A DNA stretch of 64,000 nucleotides from Syncephalis fuscata. Lineage: Eukaryota; Zoopagomycota; Zoopagomycetes; Zoopagales; Piptocephalidaceae. Shown piece after piece: positions 24,769 to 47,662 of this stretch; positions within the stretch are counted from its first letter, which is position 1; each line of letters opens with the position of its first letter. The DNA lies in the NCBI GenBank assembly GCA_025786725.1, contig JAHLTZ010000015.1:372001-436000 (forward strand), read 5' to 3'. The position numbers were made by a program, and so were the translations under genes. The notes under the pieces were generated by a model. That model ran no database searches, was not told the DNA's origin, and saw only the letters and a list, made by a program, of their open reading frames with translations.

Positions 24769-25824
24769 ATGAATCCAAATACTTTATCATTAGCCTCCGC
24801 TGCACTTATCGTGCTTGCATGCATATCCTCTAATGCTCAATTGGCACAGGCTATGCCCAATTATCCAACTTATCCAGATTATGGTGGCTATCCAGTATCT
24901 TATCCTCCAGTAACTACTACTGGTGCAGCCTCCTATCCTCCGGTAACTACTACTGGTGCAGCTTCCTATCCTCCAGTAACTACTACTAGTGCAGCTTCAT
25001 ATCCTCCAGTAATCACTACTAGTGTAGAACCATATCCTCCAGTAACTACTACTGATGCAGCTTCCTATCCTCCAGTAACTACTACTGGCGCAACCTCCTA
25101 TCCTCCAGTAACTACTACTGGTGCAGCTTCATATCCTCCAGTAATCACTACTAGTGCAGCTTCCTATCCTCCGGTAACTACTACTGGTGCAGCTTCCTAT
25201 CCTCCAGTAATCACTACTAGTGCAGCTTCCTATCCTCCGGTAACTACTACTGGTGCAGCTTCCTATCCTCCAGTAACTACTACTGGTGCAGCTTCATATC
25301 CTCCAGTAACTACTACTGGTGCAGCTTCCTATCCTCCAGTAACTACTACTGGTGCAGCCTCCTATCCTCCGGTAACTACTACTGGTGCAGCTTCCTATCC
25401 TCCAGTAACTACTACTAGTGCAGCTTCATATCCTCCAGTAATCACTACTAGTGTAGAACCATATCCTCCAGTAACTACTACTGATGCAGCTTCCTATCCT
25501 CCAGTAACTACTACTGATGCAGCTTCCTATCCTCCAGTAACTACTACTAGTGCAGCTTCATATCCTCCAGTAGTCACTACTAGTGTAGAACCATATCCTC
25601 CAGTAACTACTACTGATGCAGCTTCCTATCCTCCAGTAACTACTACTGGCGCAACCTCCTATCCTCCAGTAACTACTACTGGTGCAGCTTCATATCCTCC
25701 AGTAACTACTACTGGTGCAGCTTCCTATCCTCCAGTAACTACTGCTAGTACAACTTCCTATCCTCAGCCCACCAAATACTCAGCTTCTCGTTCTCCAGTA
25801 AACGCTTACCAAGCTCAATATTAA
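24769..25824 (+). CDS. Secreted Tyr/Pro/Thr tandem-repeat protein A
   Basis: Single exon of 351 residues. Residues 1-28 are a signal peptide (LSLASAALIVLACISS, cleavage probably after NAQLAQA). After a short YPTYPDYGGYP segment comes an 11-residue repeat, consensus SYPPVTTTGAA, about 26 times (33-bp DNA repeats), with variants ITTSVEP and TTTDAAS, then a short non-repetitive tail ending NAYQAQY. Such Thr/Pro/Tyr arrays are typical of extended, O-glycosylated or cross-linked wall or extracellular proteins. No GPI-anchor signal is evident at the C-terminus. It is paralogous to the gene at 28097 with the same signal peptide. No enzymatic domain and no family name I can assign. Confidence 0.82.
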   Translation: MNPNTLSLASAALIVLACISSNAQLAQAMPNYPTYPDYGGYPVSYPPVTTTGAASYPPVTTTGAASYPPVTTTSAASYPPVITTSVEPYPPVTTTDAASYPPVTTTGATSYPPVTTTGAASYPPVITTSAASYPPVTTTGAASYPPVITTSAASYPPVTTTGAASYPPVTTTGAASYPPVTTTGAASYPPVTTTGAASYPPVTTTGAASYPPVTTTSAASYPPVITTSVEPYPPVTTTDAASYPPVTTTDAASYPPVTTTSAASYPPVVTTSVEPYPPVTTTDAASYPPVTTTGATSYPPVTTTGAASYPPVTTTGAASYPPVTTASTTSYPQPTKYSASRSPVNAYQAQY

Positions 25825-27977: not shown

Positions 27978-28096
27978 CCCAGATCTTCGGTATCTTTTTA
28001 AATTATTATATGCAATAGCTTCTCATCCAAGCACACTAGCAAGATCTAGACCAGTTTTTAATCATCTCTTACCACATTTAGTTGAGCTTCAGCAAA

Positions 28097-29731
28097 ATGA
28101 ATCTAGGCATTTTATCGTTAGCTTCCATTGCACTTATCGTGCTTGCATGCATATCCTCTAATGCTCAATTGGCACAGGCTATGCCCAATTATCCAACTTA
28201 TCCAGATTATGGCGACTACCCTTCAACTTATCCGGATTCTGGCGATTATCCTTTAACTTATCCAGATTCTGGCGACTATCCAACTTATCCGGATTCTGGC
28301 GACTATCCAACTTATCCAGATTATGGCGACTATCCAGTATCTTATCCTCCAGTAATCACTACTAGTGTAGAACCATATCCTCCGGTAATCACTAGTGTAA
28401 AATCATTTCCTCCGGTAATCACCACTGGTACAACCTCTTATCCTCCTGTCGCCACCACTCGCATAACTTTATATCCTCCAGTCACCACCACTCGCAAAAT
28501 CACCACTACTAGTGCAACTTCTTCCCCTCCTTTCACTACCACTCGCAGAATCACCATCACTCGTACATTCACCAACACCCGCACAGCTTCTCCTCCTCCA
28601 GTCACCACTACTAGTGTAGCTTCTCCTCCTCGCATTACCACTCGCACAATTACTAATACTCGTACATTTACCAACACCCGCACAGCTTCGCCTCCTCCAG
28701 TCACCACTACTAGTGTAACTTCTTCTCCCCCTGTCATCACTTCTATTACAACTTCTTCTCCAGTCACCACTACTAGTGTAACTTTTTCTCCTCCTCGCAT
28801 TACCACTCGCACAATCACCAACACCCGTACAATCACCAACACTCGTACATTTACCAACACCCGCACAGCTTCGCCTCCTCCAGTCACCACTACTAGTGTA
28901 ACTTCTTTTCCCCCTATCATCACTTCTATTACAACTTCTTCTCCAGTCACCACTACTAGTGTAGCTTCTTCTCCTCGCATTACCACTCGCACAATCACCA
29001 ACACCCGTACAATCACCAACACTCATACATTTACCAATACCCACACAGCTTCGCCTCCTCCAGTCACCACTACTAGTGTAACTTCTTTTCCCCCTATCAT
29101 CACTTCTATTACAACTTCTTCTCCAGTCACCACTACTAGTGTAGCTTCTTCTCCTCGCATTACCACTCGCACAATCACCAACACCCGTACAATCACCAAC
29201 ACTCATACATTTACCAATACCCACACAGCTTCGCCTCCTCCAGTCACCACTACTAGTGTAACTTCTTTTCCCCCTGTCATCACTTCTATTACAACTTCTT
29301 CTCCAGTCACCACTACTAGTGTAGCTTCTTCTCCTCGCATTACCACTCGCACAATCACCAACACCCGTACAATCACCAACACTCATACATTTACCAATAC
29401 CCACACAGCTTCGCCTCCTCCAGTCACCACTACTAGTGTAACTTCTTTTCCCCCTGTCATCACTTCTATTACAACTTCTTCTCCAGTCACCACTACTAGT
29501 GTAACTTCTTTTCCCCCTATCATCACTTCTATTACAACTTCTTTTCCTCCAGTCACCACTACTAGTGTAACTTCTTCTCCTCGCATTACCACTCGCACAA
29601 TCACCAACACCCGTACAATCACCAACACTCATACATTTACCAATACCCACACAGCTTTTCTTACTCCAGTTACCACCACTTTCATGGTTTTTGATGTCCC
29701 AGCCCCCACACACCTAGCTTTTCTTTCTTGA
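28097..29731 (+). CDS. Secreted Thr/Pro tandem-repeat protein B
   Basis: Single exon of 544 residues, paralogue of gene A. The signal peptide (ILSLASIALIVLACISSNAQ) is nearly the same as in A, followed by five YPTYPDYGD-type units and a few SYPPVITTS units. The body is a 60-residue block (ITNTRTITNTHTFTNTHTA, PPPVTTTSVTSFPP, TSPVTTTSVASSPRITT) repeated at an exact 180-bp period near 28801, 28981, 29161 and 29341, with a partial copy after that. The density of Thr and Pro suggests heavy O-mannosylation and a wall or adhesive role, which is inference. The start is the ATG at 28097, which aligns with the start of gene A. The long antisense frame across the repeats is a composition effect. Confidence 0.82.
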   Translation: MNLGILSLASIALIVLACISSNAQLAQAMPNYPTYPDYGDYPSTYPDSGDYPLTYPDSGDYPTYPDSGDYPTYPDYGDYPVSYPPVITTSVEPYPPVITSVKSFPPVITTGTTSYPPVATTRITLYPPVTTTRKITTTSATSSPPFTTTRRITITRTFTNTRTASPPPVTTTSVASPPRITTRTITNTRTFTNTRTASPPPVTTTSVTSSPPVITSITTSSPVTTTSVTFSPPRITTRTITNTRTITNTRTFTNTRTASPPPVTTTSVTSFPPIITSITTSSPVTTTSVASSPRITTRTITNTRTITNTHTFTNTHTASPPPVTTTSVTSFPPIITSITTSSPVTTTSVASSPRITTRTITNTRTITNTHTFTNTHTASPPPVTTTSVTSFPPVITSITTSSPVTTTSVASSPRITTRTITNTRTITNTHTFTNTHTASPPPVTTTSVTSFPPVITSITTSSPVTTTSVTSFPPIITSITTSFPPVTTTSVTSSPRITTRTITNTRTITNTHTFTNTHTAFLTPVTTTFMVFDVPAPTHLAFLS

Positions 29732-44665: not shown

Positions 44666-45742
44666 ATATTGGGGATTAAAATGTTTTGGTGAAGACAACA
44701 GTAAAAGCACAAAGATGCATCGTCATTGCCTTCGTAGAACCCATAAATTTAGTCTGCGTTGTATGGTTGAATCATGCACAGCATAGTAAAGAATAGTACA
44801 CGGATTTCTACCATAGATGTACCGAATAATTGAAATTGCCGCGTTCTTTGTTCAAATGACAAACAGGTTGAATTAAAAATACAGCAACGGGCCTCATCAT
44901 TTTCGTAGAACCAATGAATTCTGTTTGCGTCATATGGTCGAGCTGGGGATTAATTTTTCGGTGAAAGCAATAACAAAACACAAAGACGTACCATCATTGC
45001 TTTCGTAGAACCAATGGACTCGGTTTGTGTTGCATGGTCAAATCATGCACAGCACAGTAACAACTAGCATGTGGATTTTTTACCATAAATTTATTGGATG
45101 ATTGAGATTGCCGCGTTCTTTGTTCAAAAACCAAACAGGTTGAATTAAAAATACGGCAATGGGCCTCATTCTTTTTGTAGAACCAATGGATTTAGTTTGT
45201 GTCATATGGTCGAGCTGGGGATTGATTTTTTGGTGAAGGCAATAACAAAGCACAAAGACGTATCATCACTGCTTCTGTAGGACCCATAGATTTAGCCTGC
45301 GTTGCAACCCATAAATTCAGTTTGGGTTGCATGGTCAAATCATGCACAGACAGTAAAGAATAGTACACGGATTTCTACCATAGATGTACCGGATGATTGA
45401 GATTGCCGCGTTCTTTGTTCAAATGACAAACAGGTTGAATTAAAAATACGGCAATGGGCCTCATTCTTTTTGTAGAACCAATGGATTTAGTTTGTGTCAT
45501 ATGGTCGAGCTGGGGATTGATTTTTGGTGAAAGCAATAACAAAGCACAAAGGCATATCATCACTGCTTCTGTAGGACCCATAGATTTAGCCTGCGTTGCA
45601 ACCCATAGATTTAGCCTGCGTTGCATGGTCAAGTCATGCACAGTACAGTAAAGGCAAGTACACGGATTTCTACCATAGATGTACCGGATGATTGAGATTG
45701 CCGCGTTCTTTGTTCAAATGACAAACAGGTTGAATTAAAGGC
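44666..45742. repeat. Satellite of about 295-bp units (3.5 copies)
   Basis: The landmark GATTGCCGCGTTCTTTG recurs at about 44834, 45106, 45401 and 45696, giving periods of 272, 295 and 295 bp. Each unit contains GAATAGTACACGGATTTCTA, GTTGAATTAAAAATACGGCA and TCATATGGTCGAGCTGGGGA. Inside a unit there are two related half-blocks (TAGAACCCATAAATTTAGTC and TAGAACCAATGGATTTAGTT, each followed by TGCGTTG or TGTGTCA and a ATGGTC..A motif), so the unit itself is an old dimer. The last two units are the most alike. The sequence is less AT-rich than its surroundings and does not encode a conserved frame. Confidence 0.9.
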
Positions 45743-46104
45743 TTGGTTGCACATTAGCATGTCATTAGTACATTGATATACGCATACTTCAAATCATCAT
45801 GTGAATACCTTTGAAGACTACCGTTGCATGTATAGAATGCACACTACAGCTATTCATCCATGCCTGCTAAATCGTCATATTAATGTATTTTATTGGTTTA
45901 CACTGTATTCAATGGTATATTCAATAGAATACACTGCTGGTGCTTCACAATAAATTTAATATAAATAGCCCACAAAATACACACAACTAACTAGCAGTAT
46001 CATCATCACATTCTGCTTTCTGCCAAATACTCACTCTACCTACTTTGCACCAAACATACTCTGTCGTTCACTCTACTTGTTTGTCTTAACAAATCAATCT
46101 CACC
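45743..46104 (+). promoter_or_regulatory. Promoter and 5' UTR of the micro-exon gene
   Basis: A TATA box (TATAAATA, 45960-45967, before GCCCACA) lies 145 bp before the ATG, at nearly the same distance as in the two secreted repeat genes. It is followed by a C/T/A-rich leader (CACTCTACCTACTTTGC and similar), typical of a strong RNA polymerase II promoter with a long pyrimidine-rich 5' UTR. Confidence 0.6.
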
Positions 46105-47662
46105 ATGAAGCTTTCTATTGCCGTCGTCTGCACCGTCTCGTGGCCCTTGTAGCCAGTACAGCCATGGTGGATGCTAAGCCAACTTTGGTTCGTCGTGGTA
46201 TGTTGTAGTCATAATAAATTTGATATGTTTACTAACACTATGTTCAACCAACGATGGTATTAGCTGGTAAGTTGTGATTAGGGATCATTGTTCCAGTGCT
46301 TACCGTATGTTATACAAATAATGGACATGGCAAATAGTTGGTAAGTGTTGATTGCACATAGTTATTGGCACAATAATTAATTGTTGTTTTTAATGTAAAA
46401 TAAATAAAATAGCACCATTGGCTAAAAGTAGGTTTAATATAAAACAAAATTATATTGCTGATACTAATATTGCCTATCTATACTAATAGGAGGTAAATAG
46501 CAATAAGAATAACTAATTAATTATGCACTAAATATATATCGCACATTTTGTATTTAATAACTTGTATTAATAGCTCGTAAGTGACATTGTACATTTATTA
46601 ATTATACACTAAATATATACTGTGCACTTTGGTGTTTGATAACTCGTATTAATAGTTGGTAAGTGGTATTGTATACCAATTAACTACGCACTAAACATAT
46701 ATCATTAATCGTGTATGGTTGGTGACTGTATTAATAGATCGTAAGTGGTATTGTATATTAATTGACTATACATTAAACATATACCATACATTTTGTATTT
46801 GATGAATTGTATCAATAGGCCGTAAGTAGTATTGTATACTAATTGACTATACACTAAATATATACCGTGCACTTTATGTGTTTAATGACTTGTATTAATA
46901 GGTGGTAAGTAGTATTGTATATTAATTGACTATGCACTAAATATATACCGTACATTTTGTATTTGATCCCTTGTATTAATAGGCCGTAAGTAGTATTGTA
47001 TACTAATTGATTATACACTAAATATATACCGTGCCTTTTGTATTTGATCCTTTGTATTGATAGCTCGTAAGTGGTACTATATTAATTAACTATAGGCTAA
47101 TTATATACCGTACATTTTGTATTTGATCCCTTGTATTGATAGGCCGTAAGTAGTATTGTATATTGGTTGACTATACACTAAATATATACCATGCACTTTA
47201 TGTGTTTAATGACTTGTATTAATAGCTGGTAGGTGGTATTGTATATTAATTGACTATGCACTAAACATATACCGCACATTTTGTATTTAATAACTTGTAT
47301 TAACAGCTAGTAAGTGCTATTATATATTAATTGTCTATGCGCTAAATATATACCGTGCACTTTGTGTGTTTGATGACTTGTATTAATAGCCAGTAAGTAG
47401 AGTTATATAATGTTAACTTATACGCTAATCGCATAATATTTTATATATGTATCGGCACTGATAGTATAATTGGACTGCAAGTTATATATATTTTAGGTAT
47501 ATATTCGGCAAGAATCAAGATCATTTGACAACTACGCCATTCAGTCCATTCATATATCAAGTTCCATCCAATGCCCCGGTTTATTCAACCCTTAATCGAT
47601 GGACTCCTTATATTGCCAACATGTTTCTATTTTTCTGTACATGCTCAGCTATGCAGACTTAG
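46105..47662 (+). CDS. Micro-exon gene for a small secreted pe​ptide (candidate)
   Basis: Exon 1 (46105-46197) encodes a signal peptide: MKLSIAVVCTVS, then, one base out of frame, VALVASTAMVDAKPTLVRR; one base is probably missing near 46140. Spliced onto it are CTG (46264), TTG (46338), a possible 15-nt exon (46413-46427), GAG (46490), and then CTC, TTG, ATC, GCC, GTG, GCC, CTC, GCC, CTG, CTA and CCA at 46574, 46656, 46738, 46819, 46902, 46983, 47064, 47143, 47226, 47307 and 47390. Every one is preceded by AG and followed by GTAAGT or a close variant. The last exon starts at 47465. Continuing the signal-peptide frame gives AVAPLAKR, ALDRR, GPRPATI and a stop at 47467-47469: a propeptide with dibasic (Kex2-type) sites. 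The alternative frame from ATG 46171 gives a hydrophobic leader (LLIAVALALLP) and a 66-codon final exon ending at 47662. Function unknown; splicing is predicted, not shown. Confidence 0.55.
46574..47392 (+). repeat. Tandem array of intron plus 3-nt exon units (period about 81 bp)
   Basis: Eleven 3-nt cores occur at steps of 82, 82, 81, 83, 81, 81, 79, 83, 81 and 83 bp. Each unit reads donor GTAAGT, TATTGTATATTAATTGACTA or similar, CACTAAATATATACC, CATTTTGTATTTGAT, a TGAC/TAAC branch-like motif about 12 nt before the end, and TGTATTAATAG. Introns are 76-80 nt in the array. The acceptor AG is invariant and the donor is GTAAGT in all but one unit (GTAGGT). The array lies wholly inside the micro-exon gene. 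Confidence 0.88.

Follow-up and report, generated by a model that had tools for sequence, protein, structure and literature searches.

Candidate arrays of one-codon micro-exons in a putative secreted-peptide gene family of the fungus Syncephalis fuscata

Known micro-exon genes and the Syncephalis family

Micro-exon genes (MEGs) of schistosomes and tapeworms encode secreted proteins, carry a signal peptide and contain consecutive micro-exons mostly divisible by three; they diversify strongly and are poorly annotated by automatic methods (PMC10526429, PMC7653826). The 35 genes covered by one of these sources have exons of 6–81 bp (3–81 bp in its abstract), mostly 15 bp, with 10–20 per gene and introns of 0.1–5 kb (PMC10526429), in line with an earlier note on the DNA analyzed here, which had described schistosome micro-exons as longer as a rule. 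The other source defines MEGs by at least seven exons, at least half of them micro-exons divisible by three, and a run of at least four (PMC7653826). Aphid bicycle and megacycle genes likewise belong to a large family of rapidly evolving putative effectors, whose many small exons share one phase; bicycle genes are described with ∼17 exons on average, the internal ones almost all in phase 2, and megacycle has more than 100 micro-exons for ∼2000 residues (PMC9168663), so its exons must be far longer than three nucleotides. Exons of 1–3 nt can be spliced and are reported singly, with 1 nt in Arabidopsis APC11 and in Fusarium CYP621A, the latter case backed by an intronless relative, and 3 bp in Drosophila homothorax (PMC12940212, PMC4674806, PMC7392893).

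The window, a stretch of 64,000 nucleotides from the genome of Syncephalis fuscata (Zoopagales, Zoopagomycota), contains an array of AG-NNN-GT units between positions 46105 and 47662 of the forward strand. We consider it highly probable that this array belongs to a family of secreted-peptide genes whose mature peptide is encoded at about one codon per exon. The earlier note had described a single gene; in our analysis this gene has many relatives, which together form a large family, and a single member can contain as many as 84 modelled micro-exons. All 19 array models have the exon structure of MEGs, with 10–84 predicted micro-exons each, and the family encodes a signal peptide on its first exon, the window copy being frame-broken there. 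By analogy, the fungal arrays would work like flatworm MEGs, being more extreme in exon length, number, and regularity. Exon skipping is a further source of protein variation in MEGs; in the arrays, as the earlier note had pointed out, it would leave the frame intact. Unlike MEGs, they consist with few exceptions of 3-nt exons, up to 84 modelled per gene, in phase 1 and separated by mutually similar introns of ∼78 nt in tandem, and they have intronless sister genes. Aphid bicycle genes would be the nearest functional parallel. APC11, CYP621A, and homothorax have one ultra-short exon each, whereas the fungal genes have tens in a row and form a large family. Introner elements, by comparison, are many similar introns in one genome, located singly in many unrelated genes. 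Array introns differ from these in that, in the stretches searched, they are found only as arrays in one gene family: at an E-value of 0.1, the family intron profile matches nothing in the rest of the window and nothing in a small sample of other sequence, 48 kb from contigs C3 and C10.

The one-codon-exon architecture has no earlier description in the literature that we searched, single exons of 1–3 nt being already known. No published account of such arrays was found in the titles and abstract starts among the matches listed, with subscription journals thinly covered, and no paper in that literature joins “microexon” with “Zoopag”. If transcripts confirm the tens of consecutive one-codon exons, these would be, to our knowledge, the most finely divided genes known.

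We searched the S. fuscata assembly (28.95 Mb, 299 contigs) for further copies. The motif TATTAATAGNNNGTAAGT (TATTAATAG-NNN-GTAAGT) occurs at 1519 strict sites, compared with none for the reversed control. When gaps of 0–24 nt are allowed, only 35 sites are added (1554 in total, with three for the reversed control), such that 97.7% of the gaps (1519 of 1554) are exactly 3 nt long. The signal-peptide exon of the family matches at least 150 places (150 scored among 336 candidates); the matches encode a MKLSIAVVCTIVVALVASTAMVDA-like peptide, whose nature as a signal peptide was judged by eye. At an E-value of 0.01, 14 database proteins (among 672 candidates) belong to the family, all named S. fuscata and none from flatworms, and no Pfam family scores above cut-off for 10 family proteins. 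Four public gene models (P0001, P0002, P0007, and P0010) keep the signal peptide and then appear to read into the first intron; this suggests that array genes are misannotated in public models and missed by standard annotation. By rough extrapolation, the genome may contain several thousand one-codon exons, perhaps ∼5,600. We selected 20 genes (11 intronless, 9 of the array type) mainly for long open reading frames, and no genome-wide ratio can be derived from this sample; the length of the open frame proved unsuitable for typing genes, since long frames are found in array genes as well. From the signal peptides recognized by eye, the array products are predicted to be secreted. Syncephalis species are obligate mycoparasites (PMC6784888), and a role of the peptides against or toward the host fungus would be a guess from this way of life. 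Were the architecture real, it would represent a new route for a parasite to diversify its secreted peptides.

Anatomy and predicted splicing of the array genes

We read 19 array genes, that of the window and 18 more. Because four pairs are near-identical, this leaves 15 non-redundant arrays, 10 of which are from contigs C1 and C2. In the architecture we propose, exon 1 would encode the signal peptide, mostly with an Arg-Arg end, and would stop in phase 1. It would be followed by 3-nt exons (6 nt in rare cases), about 10 to 84 in number, separated by GT-AG (rarely GC-AG) introns of ∼78 nt, and in many genes the last exon would open at or near the stop codon. In 11 of the 15 arrays, exon 1 encodes MKLSIAVVCTIVVALVASTAMVDANPALVRR-like residues, and its phase-1 end is followed by GTATGT (for L081 and L082, exon 1 was read in L063 and L067). 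The other four are irregular: exon 1 is out of frame in the window copy and has no recognized donor in L042, and a pattern search of the fetched stretches of L038 and L039, perhaps further decaying copies, recognized no exon 1 with an ATG. The earlier note had given each exon one codon's worth of sequence. This holds for its length of 3 nt, and the phase amends it, each triplet completing one codon with two bases and opening the next with its third base. At the 3′ end, homology to intronless genes starts no more than 3 nt from the predicted stop-adjacent acceptor in 6 of 14 arrays (L081 was left out, as its stretch ended too early), and thus the stop codon often marks the start of the last exon.

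Introns between adjacent triplets have a median length of 78 nt. Donors in 354 typed links are GTAAGT (310), GTAGGT (17), GCAAGT (10), GTGAGT (7), GTAAAT (5), and others (5), with GC donors in 11 of the 354. We also linked adjacent introns by an intron-interior profile that excludes the first 8 nt behind the donor and the last 18 nt ahead of the acceptor; AG-N3-GT or AG-N3-GC is found in 400 of 412 such links (356 with a stricter motif), the profile interiors having come from modelled introns, which makes this linkage test less biased, not independent. With the donor written as G[TC]A[AG], an exon length of 3 is found in 384 links, 7 in 111, 0 in 48, and 1 in 28, and no other length up to 15 occurs in more than 12 links; most length-7 links are length-3 sites for which the second GT of the donor was taken as its start. 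Eight 6-nt exons occur among the 412 links. Those in L032, L036, L042, L052, and L082 have a TTAG acceptor, are often found early in the array, and in several genes add a cysteine where the intronless sisters predict one. The arrays to which the splice-site models were applied had also served to train them. Our first micro-exon models missed 6-nt exons and exons with GC or weak donors, and have been replaced by the final models. By eye, the longest array, L043 (84 modelled exons), is predicted to encode a probably helical, nearly Cys-free protein, in contrast to the Cys-rich products, and L040 and L041 appear similar. A protein search of the genome with the L043 product returned no compact copy, an empty answer that is uninformative without a known match.

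The array introns have the GT-AG borders and the branch-like site of spliceosomal introns; 187 CTAA motifs are located 40–44 nt from the 3′ end in a set of 379 introns. Two ordinary introns in the window (53 and 68 nt) have the same GT-AG borders. These features bear on the idea that the units are excised from DNA, for which the internal eliminated sequences of ciliates are a precedent, and that such joining also gave rise to the intronless genes. Three of six tested intronless copies do share ∼1 kb of upstream sequence with the arrays at 79–81% identity, as this idea would predict, but the canonical borders, including the rare GC-AG pairs, and the branch-like motif speak for the spliceosome, and we regard excision from DNA as extremely improbable.

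Exon definition cannot span three nucleotides. In our preferred reading, that of spliced micro-exons, the introns would be taken out one by one via intron definition, generating a short mRNA. Intron definition with stepwise splicing has been proposed for the 1-nt exon of APC11 (PMC4674806). By analogy, this scheme would fit the arrays, with their strong GTAAGT and TAATAG signals and introns of ∼78 nt, near ordinary intron size. RNA hairpins bridging the introns were not seen (mean z is −0.24 for 80 of the 379 introns, compared with mononucleotide shuffles). If true, the arrays would test the spliceosome on exons far too small for exon definition.

Coding constraint across the introns and intronless sister genes

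We analyzed the reading frame in the 15 non-redundant arrays (428 triplets, 394 neighboring pairs), with the phase set by exon 1. As a control, the order of the triplets was permuted within each array in 5000 trials. Since permutation leaves the triplet content unchanged, any signal lies in which triplet follows which across an intron. In phase 1, we count one stop codon versus 17.4 in permuted arrays (the minimum is 6, and 0 of 5000 trials were as low) and 40 Cys codons versus 21.2 (the maximum is 33, and 0 of 5000 were as high). The phase-2 frame carries no such signal, with 41 stops versus 42.0 and 17 Cys codons versus 19.8. An earlier model set led to the same outcome. Phase-1 stops are absent from 14 of the 15 models, and the L043 model keeps one near its end. 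Genome-wide, T|AR (stop) is found 4 times in phase 1, compared with 186 for V|AR, 71 for T|AY (Tyr), and 172 for V|AY. This T|AR deficit corresponds to an odds ratio of 0.05 (Fisher p = 1.2e-15), a p-value that is too small because duplicated arrays are counted repeatedly, whereas the difference between the two frames is unaffected. Phase 2, as the control, has no deficit of TA|R (67) relative to TA|Y (38), which fits a first-position purine frequency of 0.64.

A minisatellite inside one long intron, with exon 1 joined directly to the last exon and AG-NNN-GT as a by-product of the repeat, would account for the tandem units and for the window copy, which alone (12 of 14 triplets modelled) has no coding signal. 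A repeat of this kind should have no frame constraint across its units, which is not what we find in the arrays: a by-product would not shun stops in one frame only across introns of 78 nt. In addition, the triplets are only 0.28 identical within arrays, though the introns of the units are 83% identical, and the array peptides resemble those of intronless sisters. We thus consider a minisatellite very improbable. Judged from the sequence, it is very probable that the triplets are spliced as one-codon coding exons and that the encoded peptides are secreted and often rich in cysteine.

The intronless sisters come from 19 fetched loci, 18 of them distinct and used as the comparison panel. They contain the exon-1 peptide followed by a mature part that is Cys-rich in most loci, and most of them are alike in 3′ sequence. 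The predicted spliced product of L081 aligns with intronless L076 with a score of 96 (82 before splice-signal exons were added), compared with a maximum of 52 in 1000 permutations, and the two share ACNxPSRGG and CTYSEC.KCKT. Spliced L050 shares CKCxDxDGxCTSC with L059 and L051 (score 69 versus a permutation maximum of 49), and 34 of 40 bases are identical between L050 and L059. Five of the 15 arrays (L032, L042, L050, L052, and L081) score above all 500 triplet permutations, L052 narrowly (46 versus 45); inclusion of its 6-nt exon raised the L052 score from 39 to 46 and changed its best partner from L076 to L061. The remaining 10 (the window copy, L034, L036, L037, L038, L039, L041, L043, L044, and L082) fail to exceed their best triplet permutation. 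Residue shuffling, which keeps the Cys count, is a stricter control, and L032, L050, and L081 beat all 500 shuffles (2 of 15 arrays in the earlier models); the other 12 do not, with 6 of the 500 shuffles reaching the score of L042 and 18 that of L052. The likeness between spliced arrays and intronless genes would be as near to cDNA evidence as a genome alone allows. The earlier note had read the triplets as coding micro-exons of 3 nt that link a signal-peptide exon to a final exon. At the level of the family, this proposal is strongly supported by the frame-specific avoidance of stops, the enrichment of cysteines, the genome-wide counts, and the resemblance of several arrays to intronless genes.

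The spacing C-x2-C-x3-C-x(8–15)-C-x3-C is present in 2 of 15 spliced arrays and in 4 of 18 intronless genes. The motif CX3C-Xn-CX3C, which was picked post hoc, is found in 5 of 18 intronless genes and 3 of 15 spliced arrays (the permutation mean is 0.006); peptides with CX3C...CX3C and two helices are known as cysteine helical-hairpin peptides. An AlphaFold model of P0006, built from three sequences only, has helices at residues 34–48 and 52–62 (mean pLDDT is 63.5).

Some loci lack introns altogether and encode peptides of a similar kind. The upstream stretch common to arrays and three of the six tested intronless genes measures 993–999 nt. Among the other three, L058 shares 166 nt upstream, L055 a distant patch, and L059 has no match. 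The three genes that have ∼1 kb of upstream sequence in common with arrays are unlikely to be simple retrocopies. The simplest idea would be that a resident gene was converted by cDNA of its own transcript. If transcripts confirm the splicing of the arrays, the array and intronless versions would represent a natural experiment on intron loss.

Divergence between paralogs and the copy in the window

Four recent paralog pairs, L031/L032 and L033/L034 on contig C1 and L035/L036 and L040/L041 on contig C2, are ∼18–57 kb apart, with opposite orientation in three of the four; they differ by point changes, and one pair also by whole units. In these pairs, we find differences at 2 of 1416 splice-site positions, 134 of 8193 intron positions, and 6 of 354 triplet positions. 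Splice sites look held by selection (p = 1.5e-7 compared with introns). The triplets change at the intron rate (p = 0.83), and purifying selection on triplets is not visible between recent paralogs. Within arrays, introns are on average 83% identical and triplets 28%, which is near chance (296 unit pairs); in 13 unit pairs with introns more than 90% identical, triplet identity rises to 64%. Either the triplets diversify fast, or introns are homogenized while triplets are kept. In our model, the triplets would be free to diverge while the splice sites stay fixed.

These counts also bear on whether the arrays are relics, with splicing and coding once selected, most array genes now dying, and the intronless genes active. 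Triplets changing no slower than introns in near-identical paralogs would fit, as would the 4 of 15 arrays, the window copy included, that have no regular exon 1. The regular exon 1 in the other 11, the absence of phase-1 stops from 14 of 15 models, and the conservation of splice sites in recent duplicates (2 of 1416) point the other way, and relics appear rather unlikely to us.

Each unit of ∼81 bp contributes the equivalent of exactly one codon, so adding or dropping units should change the peptide by entire residues and preserve the reading frame. The alignment of L031 with L032 has gaps of 82, 79, and 321 nt, corresponding to about one, one, and four units; at the last two (79 and 321 nt), L032 has five extra residues with the frame kept. 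Such whole-unit indels fit growth of the arrays by duplication of units. The opposite history, in which introner-like elements inserted after every codon of an intronless ancestor, could explain why one profile finds the introns of all arrays searched and why upstream sequence and 3′ regions are common to array and intronless genes. Insertion at each third base and in one phase is, however, hard to imagine, the profile has no match elsewhere in the stretches named above, and the L031/L032 indels comprise whole units; we find this origin improbable. We tentatively suggest, as a possibility we hold with less than even confidence, that the one-codon-exon genes form a codon-by-codon system, in which unequal exchange of ∼81-bp units lengthens, shortens, and changes the peptide residue by residue and always in frame, splicing possibly varies single residues, and cDNA of the genes themselves sometimes makes compact intronless loci. 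We know of no precedent for a eukaryotic diversity-generating architecture of this kind.

In the window, the start codon and signal-peptide region of exon 1 are located at 46105–46197 (+ strand, as all features below), ending CGTCGTG before GTATGT. The predicted intron 1 (46198–46263) runs from GTATGT to GGTATTAG and contains a TACTAAC-like branch site. Fourteen triplets follow: CTG (46264–46266), TTG (46338–46340), GAG (46490–46492), CTC (46574–46576), TTG (46656–46658), ATC (46738–46740), GCC (46819–46821), GTG (46902–46904), GCC (46983–46985), CTC (47064–47066), GCC (47143–47145), CTG (47226–47228), CTA (47307–47309), and CCA (47390–47392). All 14 are present as the earlier note had placed them, in the context AG|NNN|GTAAGT except for GTAAAT donors at 46490 and GTAGGT at 47226. 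AG precedes each of them, and the exact upstream string TATTAATAG, which had been reported for most, precedes 7 of the 14. The reported regular period of about 81 bp is seen by Tandem Repeats Finder (81 bp over 46514–47400; periods 81, 164, and 324 for the array of intron-plus-triplet units at 46512–47400), with an actual spacing of 79–84 bp from 46490 on. The family intron profile has 11 matches in 46513–47368, and all seven occurrences of TWATAGNNNGTARGT in the window are inside the array, compared with 0.04 expected from 100 shuffles.

The putative final exon and 3′ UTR occupy 47465–47662, a region in which GTATATATTCGG is conserved in paralogs. The usual final acceptor of the family (AAATACAG|NATAAT) was not recognized by eye in the window copy, for which the acceptor at 47465 is a plausible substitute. 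Phase-1 reading passes through the modelled array (12 of 14 triplets) without a stop and meets one directly after CCA, in the putative final exon. Upstream of the gene, a TATA-like ATATAAATAGC at 45959–45969 may act as a promoter element; an akin string, TATAAATAG or TTAAATAG, is found 5′ of many array and intronless paralogs. The signal-peptide exon proposed earlier is valid for the family and out of frame in the window, where exon 1 lacks one base relative to 10 aligned paralogs, which breaks the frame inside the signal peptide. The window copy may be a dying gene, or exon 1 may contain an assembly error. Compared with the intronless panel, the window array scores 22 (the permutation mean is 20.4, and 156 of 500 permutations reach or exceed the observed score) and alone has no coding signal; the finding of one-codon exons is carried by the family, not by the window copy.

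Other repeats are present in the window. Directly 5′ of the micro-exon gene, at 44704–45739, we located a tandem repeat of 272–295 bp with about three copies. Two adjacent predicted secreted proteins, encoded at 24769–25824 and 28082–29731, are built of 33-bp and related repeats of the SYPPVTTTGAA and TITNTRT types, and are alike in their signal peptides.
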